Below are positions 23,068 to 51,872 of a stretch of 64,000 nucleotides of DNA, one piece after another. Both the position numbers and the translations under genes were made by a program. The notes beneath the pieces are model-generated. The model saw only the letters and a list, made by a program, of their open reading frames with translations, made no database searches and was not told the DNA's origin. Within the stretch, counting starts at the first letter, position 1; every line of letters begins with the position of its first letter. The DNA is taken from the NCBI GenBank assembly GCA_018402085.1, contig JAGYJM010000002.1, forward strand, positions 2,371,501 to 2,435,500, read 5' to 3'. The DNA is from Flavobacteriales bacterium. GTDB taxonomy: Bacteria > Bacteroidota > Bacteroidia > Flavobacteriales_D > Sanyastnellaceae.

Positions 23068-24138
23068 ATGAAGGTAATACTGCTTCTCTTGCTATTCTTT
23101 TGCACCCAGACCTTAAGCGCCTGTGAATGTGCATCCGTGCGCGGATTTCTGCCGAGCATTGACCGCTACACCGTGCTGGTAGAAGGCGAGATTGCCGGAA
23201 GGGAGATTACTGACGATGGCACGATTACAACGGTGCAGGTCAGTGAGTGGGTGTACAACGGACTCAAAGTTCAGCGCACTTCAACGGTCAAGGTACTCGC
23301 AATTGAAGAGTGTGAGGGCAGTCCGGTAGCTGAAGGAAGAGTCTTGCTGCTGATTCGTCAACATGAAAGCCGAAAGCACTTTTGGTCGATGCCCACCTGT
23401 GAGGCCGGTCTTGTCACGATTGATAATGACCGGGCGTCCGGTTCATTTATTGCGCCCACATACGGTGCGAATGGTCCGATCACACACCCTGTGGCCTACA
23501 GCTGGCTGCGATCAGCAATTGAATTTCTGACTGAGAACTCAAATCATTTTGGACTTTACGAAGCGATGCCACTCAGCTTCGACCAGCCGGCGCCGGAGGA
23601 TTCGTCAGTGTGGGAAACTCCCGGGCTCTACACCGCTGGCGGAAAAGGACCTTTTAAGGAAACGATGATTGTTGAGCGTTCACCTGACGGACTTGACCTT
23701 ACTATGCAGGATGGTTCACGCTACCCCTGGTCGAATCAGCCCGGAACCTACACGTTTGCACAAATCGGTCCGCAGCAATGGCGATTCAGAGGCGTAAGTG
23801 TTATTCATTCTGACAACAAGCTTGTGTTCTCTGAATTTACGCCGCTGATGCCGGGGGTATGGGAACGGTTCGGGGTGTATTGGTTTCTTATAGAGGAAAA
23901 AGGGTTCGCGCACTACACCTTCAGGCGTGTGGATCTACGCCCTGAAGTGCTCACAGACGAGCTAATGAAGTACCGCAACGAACTACCCGAGAATGCCTAC
24001 AAGCGGGATGGCGCAATAGATGCCATCTTGACGGGCGAAGACGAAACCGCGCCGGGACTTCTATATTACGGTCCGCGGCATGTCTTGCTCTTGCGGTCAA
24101 ATACCAGGGGGTGGTTCGCCCCACAAAAACGCTACTGA
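23068..24138 (+). CDS. exported protein of unknown function, possible NTR/TIMP-like domain
   Basis: 356 residues with an N-terminal signal (ILLLLLFFCTQTLSACEC). The mature N-terminus CECASV..., with VLVEGEIAG and later Cys residues (IEECEGS, MPTCEAG), recalls bacterial netrin/TIMP-like domains that begin CxC right after cleavage. Cys could alternatively be lipidated (LSAC). The C-terminal 200 residues hold a separate beta-rich domain with repeated Trp. The gene ends convergently, with a 7-nt overlap of the acyltransferase stop. The domain call is by-eye only. Confidence 0.6.
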   Translation: MKVILLLLLFFCTQTLSACECASVRGFLPSIDRYTVLVEGEIAGREITDDGTITTVQVSEWVYNGLKVQRTSTVKVLAIEECEGSPVAEGRVLLLIRQHESRKHFWSMPTCEAGLVTIDNDRASGSFIAPTYGANGPITHPVAYSWLRSAIEFLTENSNHFGLYEAMPLSFDQPAPEDSSVWETPGLYTAGGKGPFKETMIVERSPDGLDLTMQDGSRYPWSNQPGTYTFAQIGPQQWRFRGVSVIHSDNKLVFSEFTPLMPGVWERFGVYWFLIEEKGFAHYTFRRVDLRPEVLTDELMKYRNELPENAYKRDGAIDAILTGEDETAPGLLYYGPRHVLLLRSNTRGWFAPQKRY

Positions 24139-25010
24139 AGTTCTTCAGGCATCTTATGCTTCCAGCGCTTATGTGACCAGAGCCAGAAGGCCGGCTGTTT
24201 GCGGATTTCCTCCTCGAGACGCTTGTTCAATTGTTGCATGATGGCGCCTTTCTCTGTTTCTTCTCCTACCTGCTCAGCGATCAGCTCGTAGCGAATCTCG
24301 TAATGCCCACGCTTCAGTTTCACAATCGAACCGTACACCACTGCCATGTCGTACTCACGGGCATGTTTCTCGGGGCCGAAGTATGTCGCGGTGGGGTGTC
24401 CGAAAAAATCAAGCCACAGCGACTTCTTCGGGTTGGCGGGTGATTGATCAAAGCCATAGATGATCACCGTAGGTTCATCTTTATGATCCTGCAGCCATTG
24501 TGACGACTCTATGGTAGGCACCATGATCAAGCCGAAACGGCCTCGGGTTTCACGCATTTTCGCATCAAACCACTTATTGCTGAGTCGTTTGTAAATGGCC
24601 ATTGCCTGACCTTCGTATTGTCCGGCCGCAGCCATGGCATAAAGCTCCCAGTTGTTCATGTGTCCGCCCCCCAGCACCACACTCCTGCCCTTCCTGAGCT
24701 GTGCGTTAATGACTTCTTCATTGACAGCTCGCATGCGCTTTCGCACTTGTTCTTCGGAGATCGAGAAGTTCTTGAAGCTCTCTATAAAGATGTCTGCCAC
24801 GTGGCTGTAGAACTGACGTAGTAGCTGTTTCCGTTCGCTTTCAGACTTTTGCGGAAAGCACCTTTCGAGGTTGGAAAGGATGACCTTTTTCCGGTAAGGA
24901 AATACGGTCATGAAGATCAGCGCCACGAAGTCACTCACGCGGTATAGCAGGAAATAAGGCAAAAGCGAAATCGGCTTCAGCAACAGGTAATATGCAAGTC
25001 GGGCTCCCAT
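24132..25010 (-). CDS. LpxL/HtrB-like lysophospholipid acyltransferase
   Basis: 292 residues. N-terminal membrane segments (YYLLLKPISLLPYFLLYRVS) are followed by FPYRKKVILSNLERCFP, the usual entry to the LpxL/HtrB fold. The catalytic HxxxxE/D-type motif appears as GGHMNNWE, and the C-terminus ends in a WLWSHKRWKH motif typical of the family. It would add a secondary acyl chain to lipid A or another lipid at the inner membrane. I chose the ATG at 25010 (MGARLAYYLL); an ATG 13 codons earlier exists. The minisatellite lies just upstream. Confidence 0.92.
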   Translation of the reverse strand: MGARLAYYLLLKPISLLPYFLLYRVSDFVALIFMTVFPYRKKVILSNLERCFPQKSESERKQLLRQFYSHVADIFIESFKNFSISEEQVRKRMRAVNEEVINAQLRKGRSVVLGGGHMNNWELYAMAAAGQYEGQAMAIYKRLSNKWFDAKMRETRGRFGLIMVPTIESSQWLQDHKDEPTVIIYGFDQSPANPKKSLWLDFFGHPTATYFGPEKHAREYDMAVVYGSIVKLKRGHYEIRYELIAEQVGEETEKGAIMQQLNKRLEEEIRKQPAFWLWSHKRWKHKMPEELQ

Positions 25011-25062
25011 AGCGGCGGTAAATGTCGGAAATAAGGGGATATACCCCACAGTGCACCGTTGG

Positions 25063-25107
25063 ACCCCTCAGTCCACCGCAAGCGGTGGACAGCTCCCCTT
25101 GGCAAGG
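25063..25107 (+). repeat. nested-hairpin element, left flank of the minisatellite
   Basis: ACCCCTCA, then the outer stem GTCCACCGC / GCGGTGGAC, then AGCTCCCCTTGGCAAGG. The right arm of the inner hairpin is replaced by the first minisatellite unit, so the copy merges into the array. Confidence 0.75.
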
Positions 25108-25653
25108 CAAGCAGTTTTTTCCCGGGCTTCCTTTCCCAAAATTGCTCCCCAGGCAAGGCAAGCAGTTCTTTCCCGGGCTTCCTTTCCCAAAATTGCTCCC
25201 CAGGCAAGGCAAGCAGTTCTTCCGGCTTCCTTTCCCAAATTGCTCCCGGCAAGGCAAGCAGTTTTTTCCCGGGCTTCCTTTCCCAAAATTGCTCCCCAGG
25301 CAAGGCAAGCAGTTCTTTCCCGGGCTTCCTTTCCCAAAACTGCTCCCCAGGCAAGGCAAGCAGTTTTTTCCCGGGCTTCCTTTCCCAAAATTGCTCCCCA
25401 GGCAAGGCAAGCAGTTTTTTCCCGGGCTTTCTTTCTAAAAATTGCTCCCCAGGCAAGGCAAGCAGTTCTTTCCCGGGCTTCCTTTCCCAAAATTGCTCCC
25501 AGTGCAAGGCAAGCAGTTTTTCCCGGGCTTCCTTTCCCAAAATTGCTCCCCAGGCAAGGCAAGCAGTTTTTTCCCGGGCTTCCTTTCCCAAAATTGCTCC
25601 CCAGGCAAGGCAAGCAGTTTTTTCCCGGGCTTCCTTTCCCAAAATTGCTCCCC
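25101..25653. repeat. 51-bp minisatellite, 11 copies
   Basis: Eleven head-to-tail units starting GGCAAGGCAAGCAG, with a central TTCCCGGGCTTCC and ending ATTGCTCCCCA. Unit starts are near 25101, 25152, 25203, 25248, 25299, 25350, 25401, 25452, 25503, 25553 and 25604. Most are 51 bp, one is 45 bp and one 50 bp. Because 51 is divisible by three and the unit lacks stops, several frames stay open on both strands; I do not regard these as genes. There are no unique spacers, so it is not a CRISPR array. The array is bounded by inverted nested-hairpin elements. Confidence 0.95.
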
Positions 25654-25695
25654 TTGCTAAGGGGAGCTGTCCCGCGAAAGCGGGACTGAGGGGTC
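25647..25695 (-). repeat. nested-hairpin element, right flank of the minisatellite
   Basis: The inverse orientation of the left flank: inner hairpin GCTCCCC-TTGCTAA-GGGGAGC intact, then outer stem GTCCCGC / GCGGGAC, then TGAGGGGTC. Confidence 0.85.
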
Positions 25696-26046: not shown

Positions 26047-26586
26047 ATGATTACCCTTTTCGGTAAGAAAAAAGTCACTGACGAAAAAGTAGCCCGTCAC
26101 TTTGTATCCACCACCCTCGACGTGGTGGAAGAAGGATGGCCTGTGGTGTCCGGATTCATCAATGATAGCCCGGAGTTTGTCACTCGCCCCAAGCTCGACC
26201 CCGACGATTACGGGCGCTTTCTAATGATCGTGATCGCCGGTAACTTCAATTACATCCCGAAGAGTTTTGACGAAGGGCATGACAGCGAAATCATCAAAGG
26301 CTGCGTGCAACACTTTGCCCAAGTACTCGATGTGCCTGTCGCTGACCTCGCTGCGCGCATCAAATCGTACCGAACCTTTATCGCACGTATTAACCACCCA
26401 TCCAAAAACACGCTCTACGGGATGTCTCGCGCCATTTTCCACAAGTATGAGCTCAATGAACACCAAGAAGAATACTTCCGCAGTGTCAATACACCCAACC
26501 CGATCTTCCTGAAAAATATGAATGAGATCATGCAACACTTTCTGTGGGACTGGTCAGCGTTCAAAGAGCGGTTCAAAGTAGTGTAA
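26047..26586 (+). CDS. conserved cytosolic protein, unknown function
   Basis: 179 residues, no signal peptide or membrane segment. Helix-rich with motifs DEKVARHFVSTTLDVVEEGW, DYGRFLMIVIAGN and YGMSRAIFHKYELNEHQ. I do not recognise a named family. It has its own TAnnTTTG promoter. The OmpA-like gene follows 71 nt later with its own -7 element. Confidence 0.65.
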   Translation: MITLFGKKKVTDEKVARHFVSTTLDVVEEGWPVVSGFINDSPEFVTRPKLDPDDYGRFLMIVIAGNFNYIPKSFDEGHDSEIIKGCVQHFAQVLDVPVADLAARIKSYRTFIARINHPSKNTLYGMSRAIFHKYELNEHQEEYFRSVNTPNPIFLKNMNEIMQHFLWDWSAFKERFKVV

Positions 26587-31345: not shown

Positions 31346-31376
31346 AATCCAAATTGATCCCTATTTAAGTTTATTA

Positions 31377-31428
31377 CCCTTCAGTTCACCGCCTCGGCGG
31401 TGGACAGCTCCCCTTAGCAAGGGGAGCA
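31377..31428 (+). repeat. nested-hairpin element
   Basis: CCCTTCAGTT, outer stem CACCGCC / GGCGGTG, then GACAGCTCCCC, loop TTAGCAA, GGGGAGC. Both hairpins are intact. It faces the next copy at 31456 as an inverted pair. Confidence 0.85.
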
Positions 31429-31455
31429 ATAATGAATACGGACCAACCAAAAAGT

Positions 31456-31507
31456 GCTCCCCTTGCTAAGGGGAGCTGGATTCCGCGCAGCGGAAGACTG
31501 AGGGGTC
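31456..31507 (-). repeat. nested-hairpin element, inverted partner
   Basis: GCTCCCC, loop TTGCTAA, GGGGAGC, then an outer stem around CCGCGCAGCGG and GACTGAGGGGTC. With the copy at 31377 it forms an inverted pair about 27 bp apart. A partial outer arm (CCGCACAGCGGAAGTCTGAG) follows near 31526. Confidence 0.8.
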
Positions 31508-33994: not shown

Positions 33995-34060
33995 TATTCT
34001 GTACTTATTATTGTCCTAGTTTCCCGTGCTCCCAGACTGCCAATCTAACGAACGATCAAC

Positions 34061-34108
34061 CTCTCAGCCCCGCACCTGCGGGGCAGCTCTCCTCATCTGA
34101 GGAGAGCC
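34061..34108 (+). repeat. nested-hairpin element
   Basis: CTCTCA, outer stem GCCCCGC / GCGGGGC, then AGCTCTCCTC, loop ATCT, GAGGAGAGC. Both stems are well paired. The corresponding copy at 36012 differs in the outer stem. Confidence 0.75.
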
Positions 34109-44786: not shown

Positions 44787-44873
44787 GGGAAACTGGGAAA
44801 CTGGGAAACTGGGAAACTGGGAAACTGGGAAACTGGGAAACTGGGAAACTGGGAAACTGGGAAACTGGGAAAA
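44787..44873. repeat. 8-bp tandem repeat (GGGAAACT)10
   Basis: Ten perfect copies of GGGAAACT followed by GGGAAAA. The longest pure octamer array in the window, downstream of the ATNGAC array at 44720 in the same order seen at 51572. Confidence 0.95.
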
Positions 44874-51567: not shown

Positions 51568-51872
51568 GACTGATAGACGTATGGACAGATGGACAAATGG
51601 ACAAATGGACAAATGGACAAATGGACAAATGGACAAATTTCGAGAAACCGGGAAACCGGGAAGAGGAATTAGTATTGAATAGTGAAGAGTAAATAATAAA
51701 TCATGAGTTTCGAGATTGTTCTCTCTCCGCTGCTGGGTGCGTAAACGCGGAGGTTGCAGGAACACGATTAATCGAATCCATCTGCAGCAGGCAGAGATGC
51801 GACCCTTACCCTCGCCTTTCAAAACAATTCACTGAGTCGTTTTGTATTTTTAAAGAGCGCAAATTTCTCGTT
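51568..51872. other. intergenic region with 8-bp arrays
   Basis: A 305-bp gap. The first part is the octamer array at 51572-51664. The rest (51665-51872) shows no gene; TTTTGTATTTTTA near 51840 may be the promoter region of the pirin gene. Confidence 0.5.
51572..51664. repeat. 8-bp unit array: (NATGGACA)n then (GAAACCGG)n
   Basis: GATAGACG, TATGGACA, GATGGACA, AATGGACA five times, AATTTCGA, GAAACCGG twice, GAAGAGGA. All units are 8 bp, and the phase is kept where the unit changes. Confidence 0.85.

Follow-up and report, generated by a model that had tools for sequence, protein, structure and literature searches.

The feature at 25063-25695 of the window, the 64,000-nucleotide stretch of Flavobacteriales DNA analysed here, is probably an enlarged form of a non-coding inverted hairpin pair, from a family that resembles REPINs and BIMEs. 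Judged from its sequence, the minisatellite would have arisen by slippage or unequal exchange between the two inner palindromes of such a pair. Its growth most likely had no selected function and was a by-product of repeat instability.

TRF was used to delimit the array, and placed it at 25092-25653 with a period of 51, 11.1 copies and 93% matches, the sole period-51 array in the window. Cutting at GCTCCC gave 11 units of 52, 51, 47, 49, 51, 51, 51, 51, 50, 51 and 51 bp, which fill 25092-25646 on the + strand, each a degenerate palindrome followed by a spacer. Both results bear out the initial annotation, which had described eleven units between two opposed hairpin elements; its 45-bp unit variant is wrong, and the variants are 47, 49, 50 and 52 bp long. 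The two ends also match what had been described: a left element ACCCCTCAGTCCACCGC..GCGGTGGACA at 25063-25091 and an inverse one on the right at 25668-25695. The left end element (+ strand) has a third-strand arm CCCCTC and a variable hairpin (GTCCACCGC..GCGGTGGAC), and its stretch reads ACCCCTCAGTCCACCGCAAGCGGTGGACA. The right end element (- strand) has the hairpin GTCCCGC..GCGGGAC and a third-strand arm that here reads TGAGGGG. Just inside it, at 25647-25667, is an intact inner palindrome of 21 bp (GCTCCCCTTGCTAAGGGGAGC), assigned to neither strand. The left inner palindrome (25092-25112, + strand) had been called cut. It is indeed altered, but it is degenerate instead, GCTCCCCTTGGCAAGGCAAGC versus GCTCCCCTTAGCAAGGGGAGC, with 18 of 21 positions identical to the intact form by eye.

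The unit is confined to this array. A 31-base unit core, searched with up to 3 mismatches, had 9 matches in the window against 0.00 expected in shuffles, and in the whole 3.78 Mb genome it was found nowhere beyond those 9 places, all in the array. Copies of the same unit away from flanking elements, which had been named as evidence that would speak against the proposal, were thus not found. A plasmid search gave no match to the array, and in an Rfam scan of the window only three tRNAs reached the threshold, so that the array is not a known RNA. The units differ slightly among themselves. The first retains TTGG and reads GCTCCCCTTGGCAAGG; the other ten have lost it, and eight of these have AGG, one a shorter form and one AGTG. 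Unit 2 is identical to unit 8, and unit 6 to units 10 and 11. TRF also reported a higher period of 152 bp. Two 8-bp microsatellites lie elsewhere in the window, one at 44787-44872 (GGGAAACT, 10.8 copies, 100% matches) and one at 51581-51638 (ATGGACAA, 7.2 copies).

The initial annotation had proposed looking for further arrays between element pairs, and a genome search with the element core led to a 5-kb region, L043, which holds all three that were found. These composites, A1, A2 and A3, lie within 2.2 kb; their 2, 6 and 3 units, respectively, measure 48-53 bp and consist of a 21-bp palindrome followed by 27-32 bp of spacer, with an intact palindrome at the end of each array. The unit junction in the window had been read as a degenerate inner palindrome, and the junctions in the L043 arrays, which are still palindromes (GCTCCCCTTAGCAAGAGGAGC or GCTCCTATTAGCAAGAGGAGC), agree with that reading. 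All 8 internal palindromes of A1-A3 have GAGGAGC, whereas all 6 edge palindromes have the intact GGGGAGC, a pattern consistent with an altered inner copy having been duplicated. The window array, A1, A2, A3 and the pair at 31376 have one left-end stem in common, CACCGC/GCGGTG, and the right ends differ by site. Nor is this stem restricted to these five, as a pair at C2:122568 has it in its left element. Between the window array and L043, the spacers resemble each other little except at their ends (AGTTTTTT..AAAATT). Beside A1 and A3, at L043:1433-1532 and L043:3398-3556, are 34-bp arrays that repeat the end element's right half (GCGCAGCATGACTGAGGGGTCTAGAAACCTCCAC).

An inverted pair lacking an array had also been noted, and it is present at 31376-31507, with a single spacer of 28 bp, no assigned strand, and the layout of the window array: a left end (31376-31406), a palindrome (31407-31427), the spacer (31428-31455), a palindrome (31456-31476) and a right end (31477-31507). 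The sequence of left end, palindrome, spacer of about 28 bp, palindrome and right end is the common form of the inward-facing pairs counted. A relaxed pattern was run on stretches around the 52 places that match the exact pattern and on a random sample, a part of the genome; in the former it gave 111 matches, with overlapping stretches counted repeatedly, against 0 in the same stretches reversed. Around the 52 places there were 18 non-overlapping inward-facing pairs less than 1 kb apart, a count that omits one overlapping pair (C2:2048544). A single spacer of 26-62 bp, mostly 27-28, is found in 14 of the 18: ten have 26-28 bp, four of these ten being copies within one tandem array, and the others have 31, 33, 42 and 62 bp. 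The remaining four bear arrays and are A1, A2, A3 and the window array. Twelve pairs were read by sequence, one of them the omitted overlapping pair, and several of the remaining ones combine two different kinds of element. Two kinds also alternate at C2:2141677-2142810 (L198, and L228:1677-2810), with linkers of about 28 bp, a period of 161 bp and 7.1 copies.

The proposed mechanism follows from this layout. Because the palindrome is identical on both strands, its two copies in an inverted pair are at once inverted and direct repeats. Slippage at these inner palindromes, or unequal exchange between them, would duplicate exactly one palindrome and one spacer, and the end hairpins would remain outside the duplicated segment, as they do in the four arrays. 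The spacers within the units of A1-A3 (27-32 bp) are close to the 26-28 bp of ten of the 14 single-spacer pairs, which supports this account. So does the position of the elements, 23 of the 52 exact-pattern places being within 20 bp of a tandem array with a period of at least 30 bp. Once several units had arisen, exchange of whole units could proceed without a hairpin. In the window array the best stem of a unit is 4 bp, which 204 of 300 random genomic pieces match, and since the units are now without a strong hairpin, slippage at the hairpin would have been just the start. The identical but non-adjacent units and the 152-bp period point to block duplication or to exchange among units, and later growth of the array is better explained by unit-on-unit exchange. 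Copy numbers across the inward pairs are 1 (14 pairs), 2, 3, 6 and 11, so that one genome offers 14 single-spacer pairs and four arrays as possible steps. The number of independent origins may be as low as two, given that A1-A3 have units in common and are all found inside 2.2 kb. If the account is right, it would amount to a simple sequence rule for where bacterial minisatellites can arise: two palindromes in inverted elements, which are also direct repeats.

The initial annotation had the array growing inside an inverted pair. This stands as a description, as the array exactly fills an inward pair and single-spacer pairs are the common state; as a cause it is not supported, because tandem arrays also grow without the pair. 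Twenty stretches of 20 kb (400 kb) were taken at random from a 20-kb grid on contig C2 and run through TRF as a control. Tandem arrays with a period of at least 30 bp were found at 10 loci, and 9 of the 10 had no element within 50 bp by the exact or the relaxed pattern. The tenth is the 161-bp array of alternating elements. Array growth in this genome therefore does not need an inverted pair. Moreover, only 4 of the 18 inward pairs hold arrays, which counts against growth driven by the pair, as does the slight resemblance of the window and L043 spacers.

There is about an even chance that this genome is prone to tandem duplication of any stretch that bears a hairpin, with the pair incidental and the window array one minisatellite among dozens. 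The control arrays are consistent with such a tendency beyond their number. Eight of the ten are not of a 72-bp kind (L226 and L231, which we take to be coding), and in seven of these eight no more than 16 of 300 random pieces had a stem as long as the longest one of the unit; for the eighth the figure was 43 of 300. Also in line with it, five of seven same-direction clusters of exact-pattern elements sit in tandem arrays of element plus flank, the exceptions being 473513/473912 and 3032739/3033038. The exact-pattern elements form three outward pairs as well, none of them with an array. What general local duplication leaves unexplained is that at four sites the units between inward ends are bounded by palindromes, and that their spacers are near the length seen in single-spacer pairs. 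Tandem growth around hairpins being common in this genome, the pair would explain the borders of the array, not the tendency to grow. Hairpin-bearing minisatellites with no element nearby, of 60 bp (14 copies), 130 bp (8 copies) and 57 bp, lie at L229:2354-3197, L221:18055-19072, L228:8462-8593 and L232:14452-15824.

It is rather unlikely that a transposase copied the composites, together with their arrays, as REPIN- or MITE-like mobile units. Copying of this kind would suit the many like-built pairs at scattered places and the different left flanks of A1, A2 and A3 within 2.2 kb, and the genome does have one open Y1_Tnp gene. However, the spread of A1-A3 over 2.2 kb also fits local recombination, no target duplication was seen at the borders of five copies whose flanks were read by eye, and the 3.3 kb around the Y1_Tnp gene held no element with one mismatch allowed per half. 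This gene, at L068:1387-1866, is an open frame and the genome's single match to Y1_Tnp (RAYT-like), the transposase family sought. A link of the elements to a RAYT was rejected, as this sole locus is without one.

The elements were sought in other genomes, with exact patterns that differed between searches and genome samples that overlap. They were not found in any of 59 other relatives, in any of 398 other genomes of an order sample, or in 393 of 394 other genomes of a phylum sample. The sole exception (G336), a distant member of Bacteroidota from another class, has 8 element places, and at L103:1-260 it has pairs that combine two types of element, about 110 bp long and in tandem. In IMG/VR, a collection that may include host DNA, the element core was found in 42 stretches. 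TRF on these placed an array no more than 60 bp from an element in three, and between an inward pair in none; in L116, L150 and L153 inward-facing elements are paired within about 350 bp, with no array of this sort. An exact-pattern element that is nearly absent from the sampled relatives yet present in one distant Bacteroidota genome and in a collection of viral contigs raises the question of how it spreads.

At the level of sequence, the end elements are mirror-symmetric in the manner of intrastrand-triplex motifs. A typical one reads CCCCTC-A-(variable hairpin)-A-GCTCCCC-loop-GGGGAGC, in which CCCCTC and CTCCCC are mirror images, arranged as in an intrastrand triplex according to the description of that class of motif in the available part of PMC4666352. 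The third strand mirrors the stem arm and changes with it at one position: across all 52 exact-pattern places there were 30 C/C, 22 T/T and no mixed cases, the exact pattern fixing every other position. Fisher's test of this agreement, on 41 distinct copies whose inner stem is intact, gave 9.7e-12 uncorrected for descent, a value that overstates the case because the copies share ancestry. Some degenerate copies, which the exact pattern does not cover, break the rule, such as CCCTTC with CTCCCC (31377) and CCACTC with CTCTCC (L020). In viral contigs it is weakened by 9 of 54 distinct copies that have inner C and third-strand T, next to 39 C/C, 5 T/T, none with inner T and third-strand C, and 1 other. 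In G336, 5 copies are C/C, and 1 has T in the third strand and C in the inner stem. CTTCCC stems were looked for as a further test of the third strand and gave 4 loci; one of these is element-like, and it has no matching change.

Two further kinds of element were observed. The second, CCTCTCAG..CTCTCC/GGAGAG, has a third strand CCTCTC that changes with the stem and occurs at 34060-34107 of the window and in L019, L037 and L174-L202. The third, CCCCTCT..TCTCCCC/GGGGAGA, occurs in L178, L180, L198, L193, L234, L235 and L238, and in it the match to the longer stem extends to the base adjoining the third strand. The third strand cannot pair with its mirror arm by Watson-Crick rules, which would make these end elements an evolutionary test of intrastrand triplexes. 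We consider it an unlikely, speculative extension that triplex ends with a freely varying hairpin in the loop stall replication, that the interior palindromes are sites of template switching, and that the whole is a self-contained minisatellite generator whose unit number is set by the stall and which has spread horizontally over distant bacterial groups.

The array lies between two divergent genes. A gene with a Lip_A_acyltrans domain (PF03279) occupies 24132-25010 on the - strand, and its likely ATG at 25010 would be 52 bp from the composite; on the + strand a gene at 26047-26586, with no Pfam family at E 0.001, reads away from the array. A near-palindrome of 13 bases, GGGGATATACCCC, lies at 25035-25047, between the array and the acyltransferase start. 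It is quite improbable that the array is a regulatory or structural device of these genes (a promoter, an attenuator or a supercoiling site) kept by selection. Its position so close to where a lipid A acyltransferase gene probably starts would suit such a role, as would the single-strand fold of the entire composite, which is better than that of every one of 20 shuffles (z -4.9). BrickBuilt segments, too, include promoter elements according to the part of PMC4596501 available. Conservation argues against it. The acyltransferase gene is present in all six relatives searched, with 48-61% identity, and no element or like array was found within 1.5 kb on either side of it in any of the six; near it were a short TTATAGA repeat just before the gene in one relative (G001) and a 14-bp repeat in another (G002). 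The gene at 26047 was not found beside the acyltransferase gene in those six, and a separate contig scan in the synteny search gave distant homologues alone, 23-45% identical. Also against a regulatory device are the absence of any other genomic copy of the unit and the like-built pair at 31376, which lies between convergent genes. Side effects of the array on the gene that starts about 52 bp away are possible.

A coding role has next to no probability and was rejected: although a majority of the units are 51 bp and six ORFs of at least 80 aa lie in or across the array, the units of 52, 47, 49 and 50 bp shift the frame, so that a repeat peptide would jump frames along it, and the two array ORFs that were scanned reached Pfam scores of 24 and 21.6 bits against curated cut-offs of 25 and 23.6. 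The initial annotation had reported no stop in any frame, which holds for most units, but over the whole of 25063-25695 just 2 of 6 frames are stop-free. It had also named membership of a conserved coding sequence as a finding that would count against it, and neither the Pfam scan nor the reading of frames gave any sign of one.

No known family fits the composites on all points. A CRISPR array, which has different spacers between identical repeats, was considered and rejected, as in the window array the spacers duplicate one another. Neisserial NIME/dRS3 arrays are made up of 50-150 bp blocks of mixed kinds, with short inverted repeats in between. The array here is like them, by description alone, in having repeat blocks parted by short inverted repeats. 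For three element strings, the literature matches listed were on unrelated subjects, as far as their titles and abstract openings tell.

Regularly spaced alternating elements, as in BIMEs, were found in the 161-bp array at C2:2141677-2142810. The BIME-2 of Escherichia coli is likewise built of alternating elements with short linkers in tandem. Unlike a BIME, the window array has in its interior no alternating elements but just the symmetric inner palindrome. BIMEs in general are alternating REPs, in the words available from PMC2817692.

REPINs, as far as the accessible text of PMC3116915 goes, are alike in that an inverted pair of short hairpin repeats is the unit and tandem clusters occur. 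Here, too, the inverted hairpin pair is the common unit (18 inward pairs, 14 of them with a single spacer), and REP dimers have spacers of 20-100 bp in the portion of PMC3733652 consulted. REPIN clusters, in that account from PMC3116915, repeat whole REPINs with their flanks, as the 161-bp array does, whereas the window array repeats the palindrome and spacer alone. The GTAG/CGTC end tag of REPs and REPINs, as given in the same portion of PMC3733652, was absent by eye at the start of 27 element variants, and no RAYT flanked by repeats was found, the 3.3 kb around the sole Y1_Tnp locus being without an element.

The triplex motifs TM and TMECO share with the end elements a hairpin with a mirror-related third strand, inverted pairs, and a published link to local instability, as reported in the accessible portion of PMC4666352. 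The search described there used loops of 1-6 nt, whereas the loop between third strand and stem is here a hairpin of 14-31 nt with varied sequence, so that elements with a hairpin in the loop are probably not listed in that work, to judge from the portion available.

BrickBuilt and MITE464/PgRS come from Porphyromonas gingivalis, also of Bacteroidota. They are intergenic minisatellites with a variable number of repeats (1 to 22.8), whose leader and tail have short inverted ends, in the available description (PMC4596501). Like the composites here, they have tandem units enclosed by inverted ends and a copy number that differs between loci. Their units are 23 bp long (41 bp in PgRS) and their inverted repeats (GAGACC..) are like those of the IS5 family, as that part of PMC4596501 gives them, whereas the units here are 47-53 bp, carry the ends' own palindrome, and lie between ends that are hairpin elements, ACCCCTCAG. 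Among the known systems, BrickBuilt/MITE464, so described, is the closest in anatomy to the window array.
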